A stretch of DNA of 35,862 nt, taken from the NCBI GenBank assembly GCA_009886115.1, contig VFJJ01000097.1, forward strand, positions 1 to 35,862. The letters are read 5' to 3'. Below are positions 2-35,540 of this stretch, in pieces. The stretch comes from Actinomycetota bacterium. Its GTDB lineage: Bacteria > Actinomycetota > Acidimicrobiia > IMCC26256 > VFJJ01. Under the pieces are notes generated by a model. It did not search any database. It was given only the letters and a program-made list of their open reading frames with translations, and had not been told where the DNA came from. The number at the start of each line of letters is the position of its first letter. Position 1 is the first letter of the stretch. The position numbers were made by a program, and so were the translations under genes.

Positions 2-265
2 ATGCCCACAAGCAAACGCGAGAAGCCGAGCGTCTCGCCGTCCGATCTCGCCGACCGGCTCGAACCCCTCGGAGAACTCCGAGCCAAAGCTCTCCTCCGC
101 CACACCTTCGGCGACCTCCCCGACGCCAGCGACGTCCTCGAACGCCTCGCCCAAGCCCTCCGCCAACTCGACGACACCAGGCCCGAGGACGTGGTGGATG
201 GCCCGACCCCAAGGCCGGTCGGTCCGACGGCCAAGCGAGTCCGCAAGAGCGCGGGTGCCCGGTAA
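2..265 (+). CDS. Hypothetical small protein, possibly 5'-incomplete
   Basis: An 87-residue open frame begins with ATG at the second base of the window and ends with TAA. I do not recognise the family. The product is rich in charged residues, with a probable helix in the middle (Leu/Ala/Arg-rich, about residues 15-57) and a Pro/Arg/Lys-rich basic tail (about 66-87). No membrane segment or signal peptide is visible. Because the frame is open up to the window edge, the true start may lie upstream and this could be the C-terminal part of a longer protein. It sits next to short repeats and a damaged tRNA gene, so it may belong to an inserted segment, but that is inference. Base composition is GC-rich like the rest. 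Confidence 0.45.
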   Translation: MPTSKREKPSVSPSDLADRLEPLGELRAKALLRHTFGDLPDASDVLERLAQALRQLDDTRPEDVVDGPTPRPVGPTAKRVRKSAGAR

Positions 266-312: not shown

Positions 313-355
313 CGTGACCTAACCGTGACCTAACGAAACGGAACTGGGGGTCACG
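313..355. repeat. Tandem 11-bp repeats plus inverted copy of their core
   Basis: CGTGACCTAAC occurs twice head to tail (313-323 and 324-334), and the inverse of its first seven bases, GGTCACG, follows at 349-355. No gene covers the stretch. The arrangement resembles short arm-type binding repeats, but no recombinase gene is visible here, so the role is unknown. Confidence 0.55.
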
Positions 356-388: not shown

Positions 389-424
389 GACCAGCACTTT
401 CGCGGTTCGGTGCTGGTCGCGAAA
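389..424. repeat. Interlocked inverted repeats (pseudoknot-like layout)
   Basis: Two perfect inverted repeats are interleaved. GACCAGCAC (389-397) pairs with GTGCTGGTC (410-418), and TTTCGCG (398-404) pairs with CGCGAAA (418-424), sharing base 418. The order A-B-A'-B' allows either two mutually exclusive hairpins or an H-type pseudoknot. The block lies where the 3' third of the minus-strand tRNA-Gly should be and replaces its normal T-arm and acceptor strand. Confidence 0.7.
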
Positions 425-476
425 CCCCCGTGGCTCAGCTTGGGAAGCTGATGTTCTACCGCTGAACTACACCCGC
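403..476 (-). tRNA. tRNA-Gly (anticodon CCC), 3' third aberrant, possible pseudogene
   Basis: Read on the minus strand from 476, the acceptor 5' strand GCGGGTG, the D-arm (GTTC, loop, GAAC) and the anticodon arm (TCAGC-TTCCCAA-GCTGA, anticodon CCC at 444-442) match bacterial tRNA-Gly(CCC) closely. After the variable loop and a run of five G the match fails: the T-stem partner is absent, the T-loop reads TTTCGCG, and no CACCCGC strand pairs with the acceptor. The expected length would end near 403. The gene therefore looks truncated or overwritten in the T-loop, a region that is often an integration site. It may be a non-functional remnant. tRNA-Gly isoacceptors elsewhere (for example with anticodon UCC) could read GGG codons, so loss is tolerable. 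Confidence 0.5.
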
Positions 477-570
477 GTAGACCTTCGTACGCTAGCAAAC
501 GGCCGATTCGGCTGCGGTCTCGACTGGCAGGGTCGCCGCGCCGGGGGCGGCGAGTGAGCAGAATCGGTGG

Positions 571-1002
571 GTGCATGCGCGACCGATCGAGCCGGGGCTG
601 TTCCGCATCGGCGATCCCGAGGCCGAGGCGCCCGACATCGCGCTCATCGGGGGGTGGTCGCCGGCGAGCGGGCTGGCGCACTTCCCGCTGCTCGACACGT
701 GTCCGTACACGGGAGTCGCCGACGTGGAGGAGCGCGAGCTCAGCACTCGGGGGACGCTGTGGGGGTGGACGGCCGTCACGGCGCCGCCGCCGGGATACCG
801 GGGTCAGGTCCCGTACGGGTTCGGGATCGTCGAGCTCCCGGAGGGGCTGCGCGTGCTGGGGCGCATCACCGAGAGCGACCCGTCCCGGCTGAGCTTCGGC
901 CAGCCCATGCACCTCGTCGCCGACGCGCTGTTCACCGACGGCGACTCCGGCGAGACGGTGATCACCTGGGCGTTCGCGCCCGACACCGAGACCGCGTCGT
1001 GA
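571..1002 (+). CDS. DUF35-like OB-fold protein, thiolase partner
   Basis: This 143-residue protein resembles the DUF35/ChsH2-like OB-fold family that pairs with thiolase-type enzymes acting on acyl-CoA or sterol side-chain CoA thioesters. The C-terminal half (about residues 60-140: TRGTLWGWTAV, PYGFGIVELPEGLRVLGRI, PMHLVADALF, ITWAFAP) is the OB-fold. The N-terminal rubredoxin-like zinc ribbon of the family is degenerate: I see one Cys (LDTCPYTG) instead of paired CxxC motifs, so zinc binding is doubtful. The start is a GTG; no strong ribosome binding site is visible. The stop overlaps the GTG of the downstream thiolase-like gene (GTGA), which supports translational coupling and a complex between the two products. 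The exact substrate cannot be told from sequence. Confidence 0.75.
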   Translation: MHARPIEPGLFRIGDPEAEAPDIALIGGWSPASGLAHFPLLDTCPYTGVADVEERELSTRGTLWGWTAVTAPPPGYRGQVPYGFGIVELPEGLRVLGRITESDPSRLSFGQPMHLVADALFTDGDSGETVITWAFAPDTETAS

Positions 1003-2195
1003 GCGCAGGGAGCGCAGGGAGCGCAGGGAGCGCGGTCGAGATCGCCGGCGTCGGCCTGCACCCGTTCGGCCGTTTCGACGGGAAGTCCGTCACCCGCATG
1101 GGCGTCGAGGCCGTTCGCGGCGCACTCGGCGACGCCGGGCTGGATGGCGGCAGCCCCTCGCACCCCCCGTTCCAGGCGGCCTTCTGTGCGACGGCCTACG
1201 GCGGCGTGGCGGCCGGCCACAAGGTGCTCGGCGCCTTGGCGCTCACCGGGATGCCGATCGTCGACATCGAAGCCGGATGCGCATCCGGGGGCGCGGCCAT
1301 CCAGCTCGCAGCCGGTGCCATCGCTGCGGGCCAGTTCGACTGCGTGCTCGTGTTCGGGATCGAGAAGATGCCCAAGGGAATCATCCGGTCCTCGTTCTTC
1401 GAGCCGTGGCGCGAGGAGGCGGGCCTGGCCGCCACGCCGAGCTACTTCGCGCTCAGGGCTCAGCGGCTGATGCGCGAGCGCGGCGTGACCAAGGCCGACC
1501 TGGCCGAGGTCGTGGTGAAGAACCGCCGTCACGGCGTGCACAACCCGAACGCCATGTTCCGCAAGGAGGTGAGCGCCGACGAGGTGCTCGCCAGTCGCGT
1601 GGTCTGCGAGCCGCTGCATCTCTGGATGCTGTGCAGCCCCAACGAGGGCGCCGCCGCGGTGGTGCTGAGAGCAGCTCGACCGAACGGCAACGGTGCCAGC
1701 GTGCATCGACCGACCGTCACCCTCCGGTCCGCGGCACTGCGGAGCCACCTGCCCGGGAGCGTCCTGGGCGAGGCCACTCCCATGAGTGGTATCGACGATT
1801 CCGCCATCCCGCCGCCGTCACGTCTCGCCGCCGACACCGCCTACGAGACGGCGGGTCTCGGCCCCGACGACGTCGATGTCGTGGAGTGCCAAGACACCGA
1901 TGCCGCCCGCGAGCTGATCTCCTACGAGGAGCTCCGTCTGTGCGCGCCGGGCGAGCAGGCCCGGCTCGTCGGCGACGGCAGCGCCAGCTTGGGTGGGCGA
2001 CGGCCTGTCAACCCGTCGGGCGGCCTGCTGTCGAAGGGCGAGCCGCTCGGTGCATCGGCGTTGGCTCAGGTCGTCGAGCTGGTCGAGCAGCTCCGGGGAA
2101 CCGCCGGTGCCCGCCAGGTCGCCAACGCCAAGGTGGGCTTGGCCCACACGGTCGGCCGAGGTGCCAACGCCTGCGTCATGATCGTCAGTCGCTGA
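999..2195 (+). CDS. Thiolase-like protein (SCP-x/Ltp2 type), atypical active site
   Basis: A 398-residue thiolase-superfamily protein, usual length for lipid-transfer-type thiolases. The nucleophile region is intact (EAGCASGGAA, Cys94). Other catalytic motifs differ from classical thiolases: the first His motif reads ECQDTDA (about 296-302) where HDAF-like sequences are usual, and the GHP motif is GEP (Glu348). The C-terminal motif reads AHTVGRGANACVMIV. Altered residues and a DUF35 partner are features of thiolase-fold retro-aldolases such as Ltp2, so C-C cleavage other than CoA-dependent thiolysis is possible (inference). The GTG start at 999 overlaps the upstream stop and the first 12 residues come from a 9-bp microsatellite (SAG repeats); the true fold begins at VEIAGVG. 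A CoA-transferase gene follows 41 bp downstream. Confidence 0.85.
   Translation: MSAGSAGSAGSAVEIAGVGLHPFGRFDGKSVTRMGVEAVRGALGDAGLDGGSPSHPPFQAAFCATAYGGVAAGHKVLGALALTGMPIVDIEAGCASGGAAIQLAAGAIAAGQFDCVLVFGIEKMPKGIIRSSFFEPWREEAGLAATPSYFALRAQRLMRERGVTKADLAEVVVKNRRHGVHNPNAMFRKEVSADEVLASRVVCEPLHLWMLCSPNEGAAAVVLRAARPNGNGASVHRPTVTLRSAALRSHLPGSVLGEATPMSGIDDSAIPPPSRLAADTAYETAGLGPDDVDVVECQDTDAARELISYEELRLCAPGEQARLVGDGSASLGGRRPVNPSGGLLSKGEPLGASALAQVVELVEQLRGTAGARQVANAKVGLAHTVGRGANACVMIVSR
1002..1033 (+). repeat. 9-bp microsatellite at the thiolase start
   Basis: AGCGCAGGG is repeated three times with a fourth partial copy, directly at the GTGA junction. It encodes the Ser-Ala-Gly repeats at the N-terminus. 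Copy-number change keeps frame, so the N-terminus can vary in length without inactivating the gene. Confidence 0.8.
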
Positions 2196-2236
2196 ATGCG
2201 GCGCCCCGAGCGCCCCGAACGACCGGAGGCCGTCAG

Positions 2237-3442
2237 ATGACCCTGCCCCTCGAAGGCGTGAAGGTGCTCGAGCTCTCCGAGCACGGGTTCGTCCCGTCGG
2301 CATGCGCCGTGCTGGCCGACTGGGGCGCCGATGTCGTCAAGGCCGAGAAGCCCAGTGGCGACGCCATGCGCTTCATCATGGGCCAGGGCCTGGTCGTGAA
2401 CACCGGCGACTTCAACTTCATCAACGAGCTCGTGAACCGCAACAAGCGGGGGATCGCCCTCGATCTCAAGGTTCCCGAGGCCCGGCCGGTGTTCGAGAAG
2501 CTGGTGGCGTGGGCCGACGTGTTCGTCACCAACCAGCTCCCCGCTGTGCGCCGCAAGCTGAAGTTCGAGCCCGCCGACCTCTTCGCCGTCAACCCCCGCC
2601 TCGTGTACGCCAAGGGCCACGGGCAGGGCCAGAAGGGTCCCGATGCCGAGGCCGGCGGCTTCGACGCCGTGTCGTGGTTCGCCCGCGGAGGCGTGGCCCA
2701 CATGCTCTCGCCCGAGGACGGTCCGCTCGTGAGCCCCAGGCCGGCGTTGGGCGACATCCCCACGGGCGCCATGTTCGCCGGCGCCATCTCGGCCGCGCTG
2801 TTCCGGGCCAGCCGCACAGGCATCGGGGTGGTCGTCGACATCTCGCTGCTCGCGGGCGCGGTATGGACGCTGTCCCCCGACATCACCGCGGCCTCGCTGC
2901 TCGGTACCGACCCGCCGAGGAGCAGCGCCCGCGCCGTCCCGAGCCCCATGGTGGGCAGCTACCAGACGGCCGACCGCCGATACGTGCAACTCGTGATGAT
3001 CAACGGTGATCGCTATTGGCCCAACGCCACCAAGGCGCTGGGCCTGGAATCGCTGGGGGCCGATCCTCGCTACGCCACCGAGGCTGGCCGTGACGCCGAC
3101 AGCGAGGTGATCAAGGCCGCATTCCGCGAGGCCATCGCCACGAAACCCTTGGCGGAGCTGGTCGAGCGGCTCACCGCCGAGGGGTGCATCTTCGCCAAGT
3201 TCGCCAACACCGTCGAGGTGCTGGCCGATCCGATGGTGCTGGCCAATGGCTACGTTCCCCGCCATCCCGTCCATCCCACGGCTCGCCTCGCCGCGACGCC
3301 GGCGCAGTTCGACGACGAGCAGATCACGATCCGCAGAGGCGCCCCCGGCCTGGGAGAGCACACGGTGGAGGTGTTGCGCGAGCTCGGGCTGGCGAGCGCC
3401 GAGATCGACGGGCTCCGCGCCGCGGGCGCGATCGCCGGGTGA
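2237..3442 (+). CDS. CaiB/BaiF-type class III CoA transferase
   Basis: A 401-residue class III (formyl-CoA transferase-like) enzyme that moves CoA between acyl groups. The family start LPLEGVKVLELSE...ADWGADVVKAEKPSGD is present, followed by NRNKRGIALDLK (68-78) and the catalytic Asp in ALGDIPTG (Asp173). The C-terminal acceptor region ends with PGLGEHTVEVLRELGL. Length is normal for the family. The ATG has a clear GGAGG seven bases upstream. It follows the thiolase-like gene by 41 bp and probably shares its transcript, suggesting activation or CoA recycling of the same acyl substrate, whose identity cannot be read from the sequence. The stop is followed by the dcd promoter-like region within 50 bp. 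Confidence 0.9.
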   Translation: MTLPLEGVKVLELSEHGFVPSACAVLADWGADVVKAEKPSGDAMRFIMGQGLVVNTGDFNFINELVNRNKRGIALDLKVPEARPVFEKLVAWADVFVTNQLPAVRRKLKFEPADLFAVNPRLVYAKGHGQGQKGPDAEAGGFDAVSWFARGGVAHMLSPEDGPLVSPRPALGDIPTGAMFAGAISAALFRASRTGIGVVVDISLLAGAVWTLSPDITAASLLGTDPPRSSARAVPSPMVGSYQTADRRYVQLVMINGDRYWPNATKALGLESLGADPRYATEAGRDADSEVIKAAFREAIATKPLAELVERLTAEGCIFAKFANTVEVLADPMVLANGYVPRHPVHPTARLAATPAQFDDEQITIRRGAPGLGEHTVEVLRELGLASAEIDGLRAAGAIAG

Positions 3443-3477
3443 GCCGACCCAACTGACCGGCTCGCCGGACCAACCAC

Positions 3478-3483
3478 TAGCGT
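3478..3483 (+). promoter_or_regulatory. -10-like hexamer for dcd (leaderless candidate)
   Basis: TAGCGT lies eight bases before the dcd ATG with no ribosome binding site between. A start of transcription at or next to the ATG would give a leaderless mRNA. A weak -35-like CTGACC lies at 3453-3458, 19 bases upstream. Confidence 0.4.
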
Positions 3484-3491
3484 GCGGCCCC

Positions 3492-4064
3492 ATGATCCTG
3501 TCGGACCGGACGATCCGTGACGAGGTGGCCGCCGGGCGCATCGTGATCGATCCCTTCGAGGCCGATCTCGTGCAGCCGGCGAGCATCGACGTGCGTCTGG
3601 GCGGGCAGTTCCGGGTCATGCGCAACAGCCGTGTGACGCACATCGATCCGTTCATCGCCAACGACACCTTGATGGACGTCGTGGAGATGACCGACGCCGA
3701 GCGCTTCGTGCTCCACCCCGGCGAGTTCGCCCTGGGTCACACCGCCGAGACGTTCACGCTTCCCGACGATGTTGTGGGCGTCGTCAACGGGAAGAGTTCG
3801 TTGGGCCGACTCGGACTGCTGATCCATGCCACGGCCGGGTACATCGACCCGTGTTTCTCGGGAACGATCGTGCTGGAGCTGAGCAACGTGTCGACGTTGC
3901 CGATCCTGCTTCGGCCGGGCATGAAGGTTGCTCAGATCGTGTTCCAGCGCATGGATCGCTCCGCCGAACGGCCCTACGGCCATCCGGCGCTGGGCTCGAA
4001 GTACCAGGGCCAGAGTGGCGCCGTGGCCTCCCGCTACAGCGACAACGCCAGCCCCGACGTCTGA
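3492..4064 (+). CDS. dcd: dCTP deaminase, probably dUMP-forming (bifunctional)
   Basis: A 190-residue dCTP deaminase that makes deoxyuridine nucleotides for dTMP synthesis in the cytoplasm. Family motifs are complete: LVQPASIDVRL (26-36), HPGEFALG (75-82), GKSSLGRLGLLIHATAG (100-116), YIDPCFSG (117-124), the catalytic Glu in VLELSN (Glu129), and GSKYQGQSG (168-176). The sequence is much closer to the mycobacterial bifunctional deaminase/dUTPase, which yields dUMP directly, than to the monofunctional E. coli enzyme, so the dUMP-forming activity is likely (inference from similarity). The ATG is preceded by a TANNNT hexamer and not by a ribosome binding site. The gene stands alone and converges on the exporter gene downstream. 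Confidence 0.95.
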   Translation: MILSDRTIRDEVAAGRIVIDPFEADLVQPASIDVRLGGQFRVMRNSRVTHIDPFIANDTLMDVVEMTDAERFVLHPGEFALGHTAETFTLPDDVVGVVNGKSSLGRLGLLIHATAGYIDPCFSGTIVLELSNVSTLPILLRPGMKVAQIVFQRMDRSAERPYGHPALGSKYQGQSGAVASRYSDNASPDV

Positions 4065-4066
4065 GG

Positions 4067-4102
4067 CTCGAGCGGCGCCGCGCTCGGCGCGCTCCGCTCG
4101 AG
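4067..4102. terminator. Hairpin between convergent dcd and exporter genes
   Basis: CTCGAGCGG (4067-4075) pairs perfectly with CCGCTCGAG (4094-4102) around an 18-base loop that is itself GC-rich. It lies in the 40-bp gap between two convergent stops, so it can serve both genes. No T-run follows, which is common in GC-rich actinomycetes. Confidence 0.55.
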
Positions 4103-4104
4103 GC

Positions 4105-4998
4105 TCACGCCACCAGCGCGGCACCCGAGCGGATCGCCATGGCGGTGGCCACCGTCATCACGACGGCCACGAACCATCGCGTCAGACGGGCGTTGTCGAC
4201 GCGATGCGCGACCCGGCCTCCCGCCAAGGCCCCACAGGCCGCCGCCGCGCCGAACACGAGGATCAGACCCCAGTCGAGGTCGAGGCCCCGAGCCTTGAGG
4301 GCGAACGCCCCTGACGTGTTGATGGCGATGATCAGCAGCGACGTGCCGACCGCCTCGCTCATCGACAGGCCGAGCAGCAACACCAACGCGGGGACGATCA
4401 CGAAGCCGCCACCGACCCCGAAGAAGCCGGTCATGAGCCCGACGCCGATGCCTGCAGCGGCGATGCGGACCCGGAAGGCGAGCGAGACCTCGGGACGGTC
4501 GGGACGGTCGAGACGGTCGGGACGGTCGAGACGGTCGAGGAGCGCGACACCCGGCCGAGCTCCGGCACCGTGCGATCTCGCGCTCTGGGGTGGGGCATCG
4601 GGAACGGTTGACGCGGTCGAGCTGACGGGAACGCACGAACGGCTCCGGCGGGCGAGCGTCATCGCCGCCGCGACCATCACGAACGAGAACGCCAGCATCA
4701 GCACGTCGGCGTCGAGACGCTGCCCGAGCGAATTGCCCGCCACCGAGCCGGCCACGCCGACGAAGCCGAACGGCACGGCGACGTCGCGCCGGACCCGCCG
4801 GGCGGTCCAATGGGGTCGCAAGGCGATGACGGCCGTCACGAACACGACCACCAGTGAGGATGCCGTAGCGGCCTTCGGCGACTCGCCGGCCACGTACACG
4901 AGCACCGGTACGGCGAGGATCGATCCTCCGGCCCCGACCGATCCGAGCGACGCTCCGATCAGCAGTCCAAAGCCCACGAGCAGCGCCACCACGATCAT
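4105..4998 (-). CDS. TauE/SafE family sulfite/anion exporter
   Basis: A 297-residue integral membrane protein of the TauE/SafE (COG0730) family, which exports sulfite or organosulfonates. It shows the internal duplication of the family: GASLGSVGAGGSILAVPVL (15-33) in the first half and MTGFFGVGGGFVIVPAL (189-205) in the second, each followed by membrane helices. The halves are joined by a long polar linker (about 118-172) containing DRLDRPD repeats. I chose ATG at 4998 because GGGAG lies seven bases upstream on the minus strand; a longer frame to 5055 adds a non-membrane Pro/Ser stretch. An AT-rich palindrome lies about 70 bp upstream. The exact anion cannot be inferred. Confidence 0.88.
   Translation of the reverse strand: MIVVALLVGFGLLIGASLGSVGAGGSILAVPVLVYVAGESPKAATASSLVVVFVTAVIALRPHWTARRVRRDVAVPFGFVGVAGSVAGNSLGQRLDADVLMLAFSFVMVAAAMTLARRSRSCVPVSSTASTVPDAPPQSARSHGAGARPGVALLDRLDRPDRLDRPDRPEVSLAFRVRIAAAGIGVGLMTGFFGVGGGFVIVPALVLLLGLSMSEAVGTSLLIIAINTSGAFALKARGLDLDWGLILVFGAAAACGALAGGRVAHRVDNARLTRWFVAVVMTVATAMAIRSGAALVA
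4492..4536. repeat. Five 9-bp tandem repeats in exporter linker
   Basis: Units GGGACGGTC and GAGACGGTC alternate in five head-to-tail copies. On the minus strand they encode Asp-Arg-Pro and Asp-Arg-Leu triplets in the cytoplasmic or periplasmic linker between the two halves of the exporter. Indels of a unit keep frame. Confidence 0.85.
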
Positions 4999-5068
4999 CG
5001 GACCGCTCCCGGTGCTCGTGGTCCGACACGATGGTGGCTCGGGCCTCGCGCCCACGAACGCTCAGAGT

Positions 5069-5086
5069 TGTCCATATGTACGGACA
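5069..5086. promoter_or_regulatory. AT-rich palindrome upstream of the exporter gene
   Basis: TGTCC (5069-5073) and GGACA (5082-5086) form an inverted repeat around ATATGTAC. The surrounding bases (TTGTCCATATG, ACATTATCG) are far more AT-rich than the rest, as expected for a promoter. It lies 71 bp before the exporter ATG, so it is an operator candidate for a repressor that I cannot identify. Confidence 0.4.
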
Positions 5087-5173
5087 TTATCGACGTCGGG
5101 CGGCTCCGTCTGAATCGAGCCTCGACGCTTCTGCCCGCTTTGTCGCCAGCCGATCGGCTCGTGGACGCTCGTG

Positions 5174-6730
5174 TCAGACGGGCTTGCGATCGAAGCGGGG
5201 CGACAGTGCCCGAGCCGCCGTCGGGCAGACCCCGAGCACGGCTCCGTAGGCCAGGTGGGGGCCCCACACGGCGATGGCGGGAACGCCGAGATCGGCCAAC
5301 GACCCGCTCTCGCGCAAGAAGCGCCCGTAGGCGACCCACTCGGCCCGGGCGCGCCGGCCCCGACGGGTGAGTGCGAAGCCGGCAGCGAGTCCGGCACCGA
5401 TGGCCAGCACCGGACCGGCGATGAGCGCCACGACCGCCACGGTGCTGCGCCCCCCGCTGCCCACGAGGGCGGTGACGCCCATCACCACCGCGGCAACCAG
5501 CAGCACCACGGGGGAGAAGGCCGGCGTCGTCAGCCCGTCGCCGCGGGCCCGCTTGTGCATGGCCCGCCGCATGGGACGAACGAAGGGGTGAGGGCCGTCG
5601 CTCCACAGGGGTGGGCCGGTGAGCATGACCTCGGCCGCGGCCTGACCCTGCGGGCGCAGCGCCGTCAGGAGCAGGCGCTCGAATTCGTCGACACCCGAGG
5701 TGGAGGCCGGGATGCGGAGGGTGAAGCGCTCCGAGTCGATCCCGTCGATACGGATCTCGCGCCGGGCGGCAAGGCCCAGGAGGGTCCCGGCGACCACCGA
5801 GCGTTCACCGCCTCCGCTCGTACCCACGAGCATCCCGACAACCGCCGGCGGCAGCGCGGACGGGGGCTCGTGGATCTCGTCCGGGACCCCGGCTGCTGCT
5901 CCCGCCTGTTCGGCCGCGGCCCGTCTCCAGCGCGGGACGAGCCATGTCAGGAGCAGCCCGAGCCACGCGCTCAGCAGCACGGCCGCGACGAGTTGCCTCA
6001 CTGGTGTGTAGTCGTCGGGTTCGCCGTCTTCGAGCGGACCTTCGGTCAGCTCGGCGCGTCGAGCGTCGAACGCGTCGTCGACCGTCCCCGCGACCACGGG
6101 GGCCGACGGCACCGCGCTCGAGGTGAGCTCGGCCAGCATGGTGGCGTCGCGCCAGGGAAACCCGGCTGCGGTGAACCGGACGGCCGCACCATCAGCACCG
6201 CTGGCGATGATGCGCTCGGCGCGGATGTCATGCAGCGGCGGGACGATGAATCGGTGGTCCCAGGACCCCGAGTCGTCGTACCACGACAGCACACCCTGGA
6301 CCTCGGTGTCGCCCAGGCCGGTGTAGGAGATCAGGCTCGGGTACATGCCGAGCTCGACGAGCGCACCGTCTTCGAAGCGGCGGACGGCCCCGGCCACCTC
6401 ATAGCTGATCGAGGCCGTCCCCTGGAACACGCCGACCGGGCCGTTCGAGAAGTCGGAGACGGCCACGGGGACGCCGTCGACGCGCACCTGCTGGGCGTCC
6501 GCTGGCAGATCGAAGCCGAGATCACGCTCCTCGTCGTCGCGGAACTCCAACCTGAGCTCAACCGCCACCACACCGTCGGGCTGCACCGCCCCTCGCCACA
6601 CGATGCGACGGAGATCGTCGCTCGTGTCGGTGATCACCGGGGTGGGCTCGAGCACCGCGCCCCACGCCTGCACCACGAGCAGCGCCAGGATCGCCAGCAA
6701 CGGCACGACGAGGAAGCGACCGGGGCGCAC
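5174..6730 (-). CDS. DUF2207 family predicted membrane protein
   Basis: A 518-residue membrane protein matching the DUF2207 pattern. An N-terminal signal/anchor helix (about 5-26) is followed by an extracytoplasmic beta-rich domain (about 35-210), a membrane helix (about 245-268), a cytoplasmic region with the family-like PPAVVGMLVG and LLGLAARREIRIDGI segments, two further helices (about 402-455) and a C-terminal tail ending in VPAIAVWGPHLAYGAVLGV. The biochemical role of DUF2207 is unknown to me. It starts with GTG 12 bp after the stop of the lipoprotein gene and probably is the last gene of a three-gene operon with the EtfD-like oxidoreductase. Function in that context is not deducible. 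Confidence 0.8.
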   Translation of the reverse strand: MRPGRFLVVPLLAILALLVVQAWGAVLEPTPVITDTSDDLRRIVWRGAVQPDGVVAVELRLEFRDDEERDLGFDLPADAQQVRVDGVPVAVSDFSNGPVGVFQGTASISYEVAGAVRRFEDGALVELGMYPSLISYTGLGDTEVQGVLSWYDDSGSWDHRFIVPPLHDIRAERIIASGADGAAVRFTAAGFPWRDATMLAELTSSAVPSAPVVAGTVDDAFDARRAELTEGPLEDGEPDDYTPVRQLVAAVLLSAWLGLLLTWLVPRWRRAAAEQAGAAAGVPDEIHEPPSALPPAVVGMLVGTSGGGERSVVAGTLLGLAARREIRIDGIDSERFTLRIPASTSGVDEFERLLLTALRPQGQAAAEVMLTGPPLWSDGPHPFVRPMRRAMHKRARGDGLTTPAFSPVVLLVAAVVMGVTALVGSGGRSTVAVVALIAGPVLAIGAGLAAGFALTRRGRRARAEWVAYGRFLRESGSLADLGVPAIAVWGPHLAYGAVLGVCPTAARALSPRFDRKPV

Positions 6731-7429: not shown

Positions 7430-9687
7430 GGACGGATCGAGCCTCCCGAGAACCCCGTGATGGGCGTGTCGGCAGAAGCCACCGCGGCAGCGCTTCGCGA
7501 TTCGATGGCCTCCAGCAACACCTGCGAGATGTCGGACACTTTCACGTTGTCGCCTTCGCCCTTCTCGTTGACACCGTCGGCGATCATCACGTAGCAGAAC
7601 GGGCAGGCCACCGCTATGCGGTCGGGCTTGGTCGCCAAGGCCTCTTCGGTGCGCTCGACGTTGACCCGCTTGTCGCCGAGATGCTCCTCCATCCACATGC
7701 GGGCACCGCCGGCGCCGCAGCAGAACGAGCGGGTGCCGTTGCGGGGCATCTCGACGACCTCGACCCCGCCGATCGCGCCGATCACCCGACGGGGCGCGAC
7801 GTAGACGTCGTTGTGCCGACCGAGATAGCACGAGTCGTGGTACACGATGCGCTCGTCGAGCGAGGCACCCACGAGCGACAGTCGTCCATCGTCGACGAGG
7901 TCGGCGAGCAATTGCGAGTGATGCACGACCTCGTAGTTGCCGCCGAGTTGCGGGTACTCGTTGAGCAACGTGTTGAAGCAGTGCGGGCACTGGGTGACGA
8001 TCTTCTTCACTCCCATGCCGTTGAGCGTGCCGATGTTCTCGGACGCCAGCATCTGGAACAGGTACTCATTGCCCGATCGGCGGGCCGAGTCACCGGTGCA
8101 CAGCTCCGACGGCCCGAGGATCGCGAAGTCGATCCCAGCTCGTTGCATGAGCTTGGAGGTCGCCTGGGTGACCTTCTTGTTCCGATCGTCGAACGAGCCG
8201 GCGCAACCCACCCAGTACAGGTACTCGTGCTCGAAGGCGTCGGCTGGGTCGACGATGACGACACTCTCGTCGAGCCCCTCCGCCCAGGCGGCGCGCTCGT
8301 GATTGCCGAGACCCCACGGGTTGTACGAGTTCTCCATGCCCCGGTAGGCGATGCCGAGCTCGGTCGGGAAGTCGGACTCCATGAGGGTGAGGTAGCGCCG
8401 GATGTCGAGGATCTTGTCGAGGATCTCGATGTTCACCGGGCAGATCTCGTCACACGCTTTGCACGACGTGCACGACCAGATCTCGTCGGTCGTGATGAGC
8501 TCGAACACGGAGTTGGCCGAGACCACCACGCCCGCCTCGAGACCGACCGTCGGCGAGACGGCCGGCGTTCCGGTGGCCGACATGATCTGGCCGATGTTGA
8601 GCACGATCTTGCGCGGGTCGAGGGGCTTGCCGGTGATGTTCGCCGGGCACACGGAGGTGCAGCGCCCGCAGACTGTGCAGGCGTCGGTGTCCATGAGCTG
8701 CTTCCAGGTGAAGTCCTCGATGGCCTTGGCGCCGAACGACTCGAGCGTGGTCTCCCCGTCGAGCAGGTACGGCATGGCCTTCATGGCGCCCTTGGGGCGG
8801 TCGCGGTCCTTCAGGTACATGTTCATCGGCGACGTGACCATGTGCCGGAGCTTCGTGGTGGGCAAGAGGATCGCGAAACCGAGGAAGGCCACGAAGTGCA
8901 GCGCCCAGACCCAGCGGTGGAAGTCGGACAGGGTCCCCTCGCTCAGATTCCCGAACCACTTCGCGATCTCCCAGCCGACGAACGACCACCGCTCGAACTC
9001 CGGACGGGCTCCCAGCTCGGCGCCCGAGTGGGCGATCCGCAGGCCCTCCACGAAGAACCCGGAGACGCCGATGAGCAAGAAGCACCCCAGGACCAGCGCG
9101 TCCTCGGGACGGGTCTTCGACCGGATCCGCTCCGGCCGTTGCACGTAGCGCCGGACGATGGCCCACACGATGCCGGCCACGAAGATCACGCCGAAGAGAT
9201 CGGCGGTGAAGGCGTAGGCCCGATAGGTGTCGCCGTGGAGGAACTTGAGGCTCTCCGGGACCTGGTGGTCGATCTCGAGGAGCACGGTGGCGATGAACAA
9301 CACGATGAACCCGAAGTAGATCATCGAGTGCATCGCCCCGGCGGGAGCGTCGCGCAGCAGCGTGCGCATCCAGACCCCGGCCCGGAAGTCGCGGGCTCGC
9401 CGGCCGGCGTTGTCGCGACGGAGCGAGCGGTCGTCGGGTCGGCCCCGCTCCCAGTTCTTCACCCGCATGGCGGCCATCCAGCCCACCACGAGGCACATCG
9501 TTGCCATCAGCGTGTAAAAGACCGCTTGAACCGGTGCAGGGACGTTGCCGAACACCTCACGCGAGACCGGCGAATCGTCGTGCCAGTCGGTGATGCTGGG
9601 GACGATGCCCGAGCCGGCGAACACCAACGCCGCCATGACGCTGGCAGCGATGACGAGTTGGTGCGGCTTGACGCGAACGCGGCGCAC
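7426..9687 (-). CDS. Membrane Fe-S oxidoreductase, EtfD-like (NarI-like + 4Fe-4S + CCG domains)
   Basis: A 753-residue protein with about six N-terminal membrane helices (roughly residues 10-280, resembling the NarI-type haem b region), two 4Fe-4S motifs (CTVCGRCTSVCP at 337-348 and CTSCKACDEICP at 406-417) and heterodisulfide-reductase CCG repeats (WVGCAGS, QCPHCFNT, DSCYLGRHNDVY, FCCGAGGARMWMEE, CPFCYVM). This domain order matches mycobacterial EtfD (Rv0338c), a membrane acceptor that passes electrons from ETF and fatty acid beta-oxidation to menaquinone; that role is inferred from similarity. GTG at 9687 is chosen because GGGAGGG lies six bases upstream on the minus strand and the first helix follows directly; the frame runs further upstream to 9786 without good support. 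The lipoprotein and DUF2207 genes follow with overlap or short spacing. Confidence 0.88.
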   Translation of the reverse strand: MRRVRVKPHQLVIAASVMAALVFAGSGIVPSITDWHDDSPVSREVFGNVPAPVQAVFYTLMATMCLVVGWMAAMRVKNWERGRPDDRSLRRDNAGRRARDFRAGVWMRTLLRDAPAGAMHSMIYFGFIVLFIATVLLEIDHQVPESLKFLHGDTYRAYAFTADLFGVIFVAGIVWAIVRRYVQRPERIRSKTRPEDALVLGCFLLIGVSGFFVEGLRIAHSGAELGARPEFERWSFVGWEIAKWFGNLSEGTLSDFHRWVWALHFVAFLGFAILLPTTKLRHMVTSPMNMYLKDRDRPKGAMKAMPYLLDGETTLESFGAKAIEDFTWKQLMDTDACTVCGRCTSVCPANITGKPLDPRKIVLNIGQIMSATGTPAVSPTVGLEAGVVVSANSVFELITTDEIWSCTSCKACDEICPVNIEILDKILDIRRYLTLMESDFPTELGIAYRGMENSYNPWGLGNHERAAWAEGLDESVVIVDPADAFEHEYLYWVGCAGSFDDRNKKVTQATSKLMQRAGIDFAILGPSELCTGDSARRSGNEYLFQMLASENIGTLNGMGVKKIVTQCPHCFNTLLNEYPQLGGNYEVVHHSQLLADLVDDGRLSLVGASLDERIVYHDSCYLGRHNDVYVAPRRVIGAIGGVEVVEMPRNGTRSFCCGAGGARMWMEEHLGDKRVNVERTEEALATKPDRIAVACPFCYVMIADGVNEKGEGDNVKVSDISQVLLEAIESRSAAAVASADTPITGFSGGSIRP

Positions 9688-14689: not shown

Positions 14690-15325
14690 ATGAACGACCA
14701 GCAGTGGATCGTCGGGGACGGCGAGTCCGTCCCCGCGACCCCCGATCCGACCGGGCCCGCGAGTCGGTCGAACGATGTCGGCGAGGGCGACGTCGGTGCC
14801 GCCGACGTCGCCCTCGCCGATGACAGGTGTTTTACCGATGGCGTTGCCGACGCCGAGATCGTCGACGACGAACCGCTCACCGAGATCGAGGTGCTCGCCG
14901 CGGAGCGCGACGAGTACCTCCTCCATCTGCAACGGCTCCAGGCCGACTTCGACAACTTCCGGAAGCGCTCGGCCCGCGATCAGGCTGCACTCAGCCAACG
15001 GGCGTCGGAGCGGCTCGTCGAGGAGCTCCTCCCCGTCCTCGATGCCTTCGACCTGGCGATGATGAGCGTCGTCGAGCTCCCCGACGAGCACGCCAAGGTG
15101 AAGAAGGGCATCGAGCTCACGTATGCCCAGATGGTCGGCGTGCTCGAGAAGGCCGGCCTGCAGCGCGTCGACGCCCTCGACCAGGCGTTCGACCCGTCGT
15201 TGCACGATGCCGTCATGCAGGTCGACGAAGGACGCGACGAACCGGTCGTCGTGGAGGTCATGCGGGCCGGATATCACCTCAAGGGCAGGGTGCTGCGGGC
15301 CGCCATGGTCAAGGTGGCCAAGTAG
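14690..15325 (+). CDS. grpE: Nucleotide exchange factor GrpE
   Basis: A 211-residue GrpE, which releases ADP from DnaK. The conserved core starts near residue 65 with the dimer coiled coil (EIEVLAAERDEYLLHLQRLQ), then ADFDNFRKRSARD, LLPVLDAFDLAM, and the beta-wing ending in VMRAGYHLKGRVLRAAMVKVAK, typical of the family. The first 60 residues are acidic and low-complexity, contain the peptide ADAEIVDDE also found in the DnaK tail, and are encoded across a perfect 19-bp palindrome. The ATG lies 5 bp after the dnaK stop, so the two are surely cotranscribed and probably coupled. Function is confident; the N-terminal extension is unusual. Confidence 0.97.
   Translation: MNDQQWIVGDGESVPATPDPTGPASRSNDVGEGDVGAADVALADDRCFTDGVADAEIVDDEPLTEIEVLAAERDEYLLHLQRLQADFDNFRKRSARDQAALSQRASERLVEELLPVLDAFDLAMMSVVELPDEHAKVKKGIELTYAQMVGVLEKAGLQRVDALDQAFDPSLHDAVMQVDEGRDEPVVVEVMRAGYHLKGRVLRAAMVKVAK
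14778..14820. repeat. Perfect 19-bp palindrome inside grpE
   Basis: The arms at 14778-14796 and 14802-14820 are exact reverse complements (left arm begins TCGGCGAGGG, right arm ends CCCTCGCCGA) with a 5-base loop TGCCG. In mRNA this makes a very stable hairpin about 90 nt into grpE. It encodes Val-Gly-Glu-Gly-Asp and Ala-Asp-Val-Ala residues of the acidic N-terminus. Confidence 0.9.
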
Positions 15326-34788: not shown

Positions 34789-35540
34789 GCGGGCCCTCGC
34801 GCCGCCGGGTCGACGCGGTCACGTTCGATTTCTGGGAGACGCTGTGCCGGCGTCGGCCGGGGGCGCTCGAGGAACGGCGGGGCGAGCTCATCTCGGTCGT
34901 CGCGGCCGGCGTGGGCGTGACCGTCGACGCTGACACCCTCGACGGAGCGATGAGCAGGGTCTGGGACGTGTACGTCGAGGCCTGGAACGCGAACCGTCAG
35001 TTCTCGGGGAACGACGCGGCCCTCTGGGTCGCGACACTGTTGGCCCGCAGCCACCCGGAGCTGGCATCCGCCGCGGTCCAGACGAGCATCGTCGAGGCCT
35101 TCCACCGGGCCGCCGACGACGCCGACCTGGTCCTGATCGTCGGCGTCGGCGAGGTGCTCGCGGCCCTGTCGGCAGCGGGGATCAAGCTCGGGATCATCTG
35201 CGACGTCGGGTTCCTGGCATCGTCTGAGCTGCGCCGCGCGCTCGATCGTCATGGTGTGCTGTCACGGTTCGACCATTGGTCGTTCTCCGACGAGGTCGGC
35301 GTGTTCAAGCCCGACCGTCGAATCTTCGAGCACGCGTTGGCCGGGCTCGGCGGGGTCGATCCCGCACGCTCCGCTCACGTCGGAGACATCCGGCGCACCG
35401 ACATCGCCGGTGCCCGGGCCATGGGAATGCTGGCGATCCGCTTCAGCGGGGTCTCGGACGACCGTGATGGCGCGCACCCCGAAGCCGACGTCGTGATCGA
35501 CGATCACCGCGACCTCGTCGACATCGTGCTCGGAACCTGA
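34785..35540 (+). CDS. HAD-superfamily hydrolase, dehalogenase-like
   Basis: A 251-residue HAD hydrolase. Motif I is FDFWETL (nucleophile Asp15), with Trp17 where phosphatases have a second Asp that acts as general acid. Motif II is LGIICDVGF, motif III has Lys in VGVFKPDRRIFEHAL, and motif IV is HVGDIRRTDIAGARAMG. Missing the second Asp is typical of haloacid-dehalogenase-type members, which have a Tyr there, so a non-phosphatase reaction or altered activity is possible. The helical cap lies at about 35-110. The GTG start overlaps the malic enzyme stop (GTGA), implying cotranslation. Substrate unknown. Confidence 0.85.
   Translation: MSGPSRRRVDAVTFDFWETLCRRRPGALEERRGELISVVAAGVGVTVDADTLDGAMSRVWDVYVEAWNANRQFSGNDAALWVATLLARSHPELASAAVQTSIVEAFHRAADDADLVLIVGVGEVLAALSAAGIKLGIICDVGFLASSELRRALDRHGVLSRFDHWSFSDEVGVFKPDRRIFEHALAGLGGVDPARSAHVGDIRRTDIAGARAMGMLAIRFSGVSDDRDGAHPEADVVIDDHRDLVDIVLGT

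Follow-up and report, generated by a model that had tools for sequence, protein, structure and literature searches.

A broken tRNA-Gly(CCC) gene probably marks the attL junction of a tyrosine-integrase island that supplied the 5′ half of its target

Introduction

Islands that leave a 5′ fragment of their target tRNA gene represent a rare, already catalogued mode of integration, and passages of the Islander work count 159 islands with a displaced 5′ fragment out of 3919 (PMC4383910). The cases in those passages combine an intact tRNA gene with a 5′ fragment in the same orientation and an integrase gene between the two, and their crossover is consistent with the anticodon loop. According to a review, rebuilding of a tRNA gene under the promoter of the element is rare among bacteria, while for archaeal pTN3-like integrases, which target the tRNA 5′ half and whose genes are split on integration, it is the norm (PMC8371274). 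A further related system is tRNA-dependent lysogeny, described for actinobacteriophages with tyrosine integrases, in which the integrase breaks the host tRNA and the element keeps the function by carrying a full tRNA, with 8-10 bp common to the two partners (PMC10865867).

Here we analyze a stretch of DNA of 35,862 nucleotides (“the window”), which is an entire contig (G000:C156) of a 5.4-Mb draft genome in 224 contigs, and in which a 5′ tRNA fragment left by an island is unusually clear. The locus resembles the Islander 5′-fragment islands in its intact tRNA and 5′ end fragment, in the same-orientation layout that a second genome (G034) has in one contig, in the integrase of the presumed interval between them and in a crossover consistent with the anticodon loop; in addition, the arm-type sites, the flank boxes and the integrase clade tie the present case to 3′-half islands at the same tRNA gene. 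As with pTN3-like integrases, the tRNA 5′ half is targeted and the rebuilt tRNA would be under the element promoter, but the integrase frame is whole (399 aa) and lies away from the att site, at 1.9 kb, which rules out a split integrase of the pTN3-like type. As in tRNA-dependent lysogeny, a tyrosine integrase breaks the host tRNA and the element keeps its function; unlike in that system, with its short core and no tRNA rebuilding, half a tRNA with 43 common nucleotides is involved, and the tRNA is rebuilt beside the island's own arms. An apparently broken tRNA gene thereby becomes a readable integration record, and it offers a natural comparison in which related integrases rebuild either the 3′ or the 5′ half of one tRNA gene while the arrangement of arms and integrase stays constant, yielding a testable proposal for the origin of the rare 5′-type islands.

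Results and Discussion

An earlier note on this DNA had described a tRNA-Gly(CCC) whose 3′ part is replaced by inverted repeats after about 50 intact nucleotides. The replacement is confirmed, and the intact 5′ part comes to 43 nt. Its nucleotides (476 to 434, minus strand) are identical to nt 1-43 of the sole intact tRNA-Gly(CCC) of the genome, which the proposed genome search located on contig C102 (6210-6283, minus strand). They comprise the acceptor 5′ strand, the D-arm and the complete anticodon arm; the C102 gene then continues into a normal T-arm, whereas in the window the T-arm is absent and foreign DNA with interlocked inverted repeats follows. Of the tRNA-model searches that had been called for, ARAGORN made no tRNA call in the window, and the Rfam tRNA model matched the fragment at 33.3 bits by skipping 50 nt, the lowest score among 48 tRNA matches in the genome, which cautions that an att junction can pass as a tRNA in a covariance model. 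The features at this end of the locus are the following.

434-476, minus strand: displaced native 5′ half of tRNA-Gly(CCC), 43/43 identity to the C102 copy, with dcd synteny in relatives
489-498, minus strand: -10-like element TTGCTAGCGT of the putative native tRNA promoter, recognized by eye
3246-4064, plus strand: frame of dcd (dCTP deaminase; Pfam DCD, E=5e-49), which anchors the native tRNA-Gly(CCC) locus

On the 5′ side of the tRNA start, the window and C102 copies have only two bases in common, so each copy has its own promoter region. An element TTGCTAGGTT was found by eye at a comparable place in the relatives L101, L097, L009 and L010. In most of 20 relatives an intact tRNA-Gly(CCC) adjoins dcd, often within a few hundred bases, and since dcd lies at 3.2-4.1 kb in the window, on the same side as in the relatives, the fragment marks the native locus. 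This comparison, which the earlier note had proposed, shows the tRNA whole in the relatives. At the sequence level, the gene is thus split and its native 3′ half is gone from the window locus. Genes for an OB-fold protein, a thiolase and a CoA-transferase (571-3442) separate the tRNA from dcd, unlike in the relatives, where dcd is mostly directly beside the tRNA; a short tandem repeat with the unit GAGCGCAGG lies at a gene junction (1003-1034).

A fragment of this kind could arise by plain decay, or by a small palindromic insertion into a redundant copy of the tRNA, without site-specific recombination. The second, intact gene makes the window copy dispensable, and the 3′ region is close to the length of a T-arm plus acceptor (33 nt versus 35 nt before the flank motif). 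The Rfam alignment indeed pairs the acceptor with positions 377-384, through an acceptor-like match, CGTCCGC, at 378-384; however, such a partner occurs in 61% of shuffles, so that an acceptor stem restored in this way is at chance level. Where a palindrome has inserted into a tRNA gene, in the manner of the Rickettsia palindromic elements, the remaining tRNA resumes behind the insert. We found no T-arm that resumes, and the only acceptor-like piece is the chance-level match. Furthermore, the break coincides with the end of the anticodon arm and is followed by arm sites that, within the genome, only the C102 copy shares, and the same break is present in an independent genome (G034, below). We therefore consider both decay and such an insertion very unlikely.

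The arm sites in question adjoin the fragment.

313-334, minus strand: pair of arm-type integrase-like sites, directly repeated GTTAGGTCACG with 11-bp spacing

The sequence TTAGGTCACG has three copies only in the 5.4 Mb of the genome, two beside the window fragment (313-322 and 324-333) and one 5′ of the intact C102 tRNA (6381-6390), all in the same orientation relative to the tRNA. In the window the arm repeats are found on the 3′ side of the anticodon centre, at 113 and 124 nt; on C102 they are on its 5′ side, at 137 and 126 nt. Their 11-bp spacing recurs in the related att sites that we measured. Putative arm-type sites thus stand on both sides of the core, at ~100-140 nt from the anticodon centre, as in the attP of tyrosine integrases. 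Such a layout, with arms on the two flanks of one attP, suggests that the window holds one junction and C102 the other. The two are separate contigs that we infer to be linked in this genome, the link being direct only in G034.

Based on these arrangements, which are read from the DNA itself, we consider it very probable that the window crosses the attL of a tyrosine-integrase island that gave the tRNA its 5′ half and stranded the native 5′ half. In this model, the island attP would carry a promoter plus the tRNA-Gly(CCC) 5′ half, with arm-type sites on both flanks, and a tyrosine integrase would recombine it with the host tRNA gene at a putative crossover point within the anticodon stem-loop. 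At the C102 end, the island promoter and 5′ half would be joined to the host 3′ half, giving a working tRNA, while at the other end the host promoter and 5′ half would be left against the distal attP arm. The start of the window would then be island interior, with the far junction (attL) at about 433. The idea of an element scar or recombination site thus holds, as a single att junction, the tRNA being whole in relatives and on C102. Integration at the tRNA 3′ end, also suggested earlier, does not fit, because the 5′ half comes from the island and the displaced piece is the native 5′ half. We saw neither an attP circle nor a same-species empty site.

A second, complete example is found in G034, where the whole layout lies within one contig (C26). 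The 5′ fragment is upstream of the intact tRNA in the same orientation; the intact tRNA has arms and a truncated integrase (3280-3705) on its 5′ side, 8.2 kb separate it from the decayed 5′ fragment (36/39 matches), and after the fragment come an inverted repeat and paired arms, and then dcd at a distance of 3 kb. This example bears on the possibility that the window junction is a metagenome assembly chimera, fusing the tRNA to unrelated DNA, as might be feared in a draft of 224 contigs with the junction 433 bases from a contig end. The DNA joined to the tRNA nevertheless has the rare arm sites of C102, and the same type of junction being contig-internal in G034 argues against an assembly artefact, making a chimera extremely improbable. 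In class-wide pattern surveys of 395 genomes, 5′-type islands appeared only in G000 and G034, the patterns being tied to tRNA-Gly(CCC) and to a TTAGGTCACG-type arm sequence, such that other cases may be missed; a survey match in G348 was set aside, its sequence being unlike the G000 and G034 sites.

The presumed integrase of the island is encoded on C102 at 8199-9398 (Pfam E=1.6e-18). Its distance of 1.9 kb from the att site, the truncation of its G034 counterpart and the small number of 5′-type examples, two in all, count against the island model. It groups with the G034 fragment and with a tRNA-Ala-associated integrase (support 100/99, for the group and not for its inner order), and the contig of the latter carries the same arm sequence beside the 3′ end of tRNA-Ala. 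The 5′-type integrases branch apart from the 3′-type tRNA-Gly integrases, and the closest phage integrases among the matches listed, mostly from mycobacteriophage records, are 30-38% identical. Compared with the features of an Islander-type island, the genome has the intact tRNA and the end fragment, here on different contigs; an integrase is present at C102:8199-9398 and as a remnant in G034, the interval being deduced in the window genome; and for a size range of 2-200 kb the G034 island measures 8.2 kb, contig breaks interrupting the window genome. The window itself holds one frame of the presumed island interior.

2-265, plus strand: open frame of 87 aa at the contig end, island interior

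Its product had no Pfam or PHROGs match and no convincing homologue among 100 relatives. Sixteen matches to an arm plus tRNA start in viral contigs were discarded, those inspected being coding-like or belonging to other tRNA kinds. The 18-mer CGAAAGTGCTGGTCAGAG was likewise rejected as a single mobile repeat family, given the mixed nature of the 30 genome and 6 viral stretches that have it; several adjoin tRNA ends, and others resemble transposon ends, terminators or coding DNA.

Contig C102 holds in addition a lone 3′ half of tRNA-Gly(CCC) (3446-3475). Pairs of ATGGCA arms at 11-bp spacing stand beside this lone half and likewise 3′ of the intact tRNA. The interval 3446-6283 (L082) is a classic 3′-half island, about 2.7 kb long, that retains part of an integrase; the difference in arm type, TTAGGTCACG versus ATGGCA, makes the two islands on C102 distinguishable. 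The cargo of the L082 island consists of the C-terminal integrase remnant and two frames that resemble an AbiE pair by eye (Pfam: a weak MarR match only).

An intact tRNA of the same isotype near an integrase, together with a lone 3′ half, is also what tRNA-dependent lysogeny of the actinobacteriophage type (PMC10865867) might lead one to expect. The lone half is, however, accounted for by the classic island, whose ATGGCA arms match those on the 3′ side of the intact tRNA, so that such lysogeny is not needed to explain it. In addition, the arms of the island under study are at matching distances from the fragment and, on the 5′ side, from the intact tRNA, and the fragment and the intact gene have 43 nt in common, not 8-10. 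This explanation is thus improbable, and we retain an island that rebuilt the 5′ half.

The classic 3′-half island of C102 (3.4-6.2 kb) resembles the window island in using the same tRNA gene with homology from the anticodon arm, in its arms, which are paired on each flank with 11-bp spacing, and in its similar flank boxes. Unlike the window island, islands of this kind supply the 3′ half and strand a 3′ fragment, with the core in the opposite orientation relative to arms and integrase; a classic 3′-half island is excluded for the window, where the fragment is a 5′ one at the native dcd locus. In 3′-type islands with an orientable layout, the arms follow the integrase direction on both sides and the core has its 3′ half first, while in both 5′-type islands the arm/integrase arrangement is kept and the tRNA core is reversed. 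The anticodon arm (TCAGCTT-CCC-AAGCTGA) reads as a perfect inverted repeat centred on CCC. Core sites for the integrase on its two sides would therefore be identical, and the integrase could bind either way round with arms and integrase gene unchanged. We thus propose, at even chances, that a 3′-rebuilding island may have become a 5′-rebuilding one by reversal of only the tRNA-derived core within an otherwise unchanged attP. If true, core reversal could also account for the 5′ fragments left by other islands.

Three arrangements in other genomes involve tRNA-Gly genes. In G057 (C1:1305535-1319676; L153, L157, L160 and L162), a single intact tRNA-Gly(CCC) is accompanied by three lone 3′ halves in a tandem array of about 14 kb, with integrases interspersed. 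In L113 (G051:C115:885-2216), which has a different arm type, the integrase beside tRNA-Gly(CCC) reads away from the tRNA, so integrase direction is variable within the group. In L118 (G046:C356), an integrase is followed, within ~250 bases, by a 3′ half of tRNA-Gly(UCC) in reversed orientation and by a whole tRNA-Gly(UCC) that points the opposite way.

The interlocked A-B-A′-B′ block that had first drawn attention to the locus is real, with 9-bp and 7-bp stems as reported, and its coordinates can now be set, with base 418 shared.

410-418, minus strand: arm A of the 9-bp inverted repeat, GACCAGCAC, containing GACCAG, the reversed CWGGTC box
389-397, minus strand: arm A′ of the 9-bp inverted repeat, GTGCTGGTC, containing CTGGTC, the forward CWGGTC box
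418-424, minus strand: arm B of the 7-bp inverted repeat, TTTCGCG, with base 418 common to arm A
398-404, minus strand: arm B′ of the 7-bp inverted repeat, CGCGAAA
385-401, minus strand: att-flank motif GAAAGTGCTGGTCAGAG; similar boxes adjoin tRNA cores in the att sites of relatives

Of dinucleotide shuffles of the 63-nt region, 0.5% contain a 9-bp repeat and 0.03% contain the interlocked pair. Across its 35.9 kb the window nonetheless has 9-bp repeats of this sort 44 times and interlocked sets three times, which makes the repeat by itself a weak, unexceptional signal; the two further sets, of similar size, lie at about 14777-14815 and 35111-35151. The possibility that the block folds into a pseudoknot is unlikely on steric grounds, by reasoning rather than computation, because the stems share base 418 and there is no loop to cross an 8-9-bp helix. 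Nor does the block look like a working RNA switch or a terminator that ends a modified tRNA. The 63-nt region does fold well, with z = -2.28 over the whole 104 nt, but no U-run follows the repeats, the shared base means that both stems cannot form fully at once, and similar box pairs occur in att DNA arms that are not downstream of a tRNA promoter; such a role therefore seems highly unlikely.

These boxes point instead to the att site. CWGGTC has a background of 4% per 43 nt. Among proximal flanks, 11 of 15 have it 8-18 nt past the tRNA end (8 of 12 without the three chosen by motif), and among distal flanks five of nine have it 32-44 nt from the core, counts that are indicative, since the flanks were gathered by hand and are partly related. 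Three distal flanks, that of the window among them, have reversed CWGGTC at 15-18 nt, and reversed and forward boxes form an inverted pair in the window and in one of the other two; in several sites the pair is imperfect or single. As other islands have CWGGTC pairs at similar distances in their distal att arms, the 9-bp repeat is probably the inverted CWGGTC pair of the distal attP arm, and not tRNA structure, and the pair is a probable candidate for a protein-binding site. In Blastococcus (L050, near 6500), where the 8 kb read around it held no related integrase, GAAAGTGCTGGTCAGAG occurs in the form of a hairpin that precedes an intact tRNA-Gly(CCC) by a few bases.
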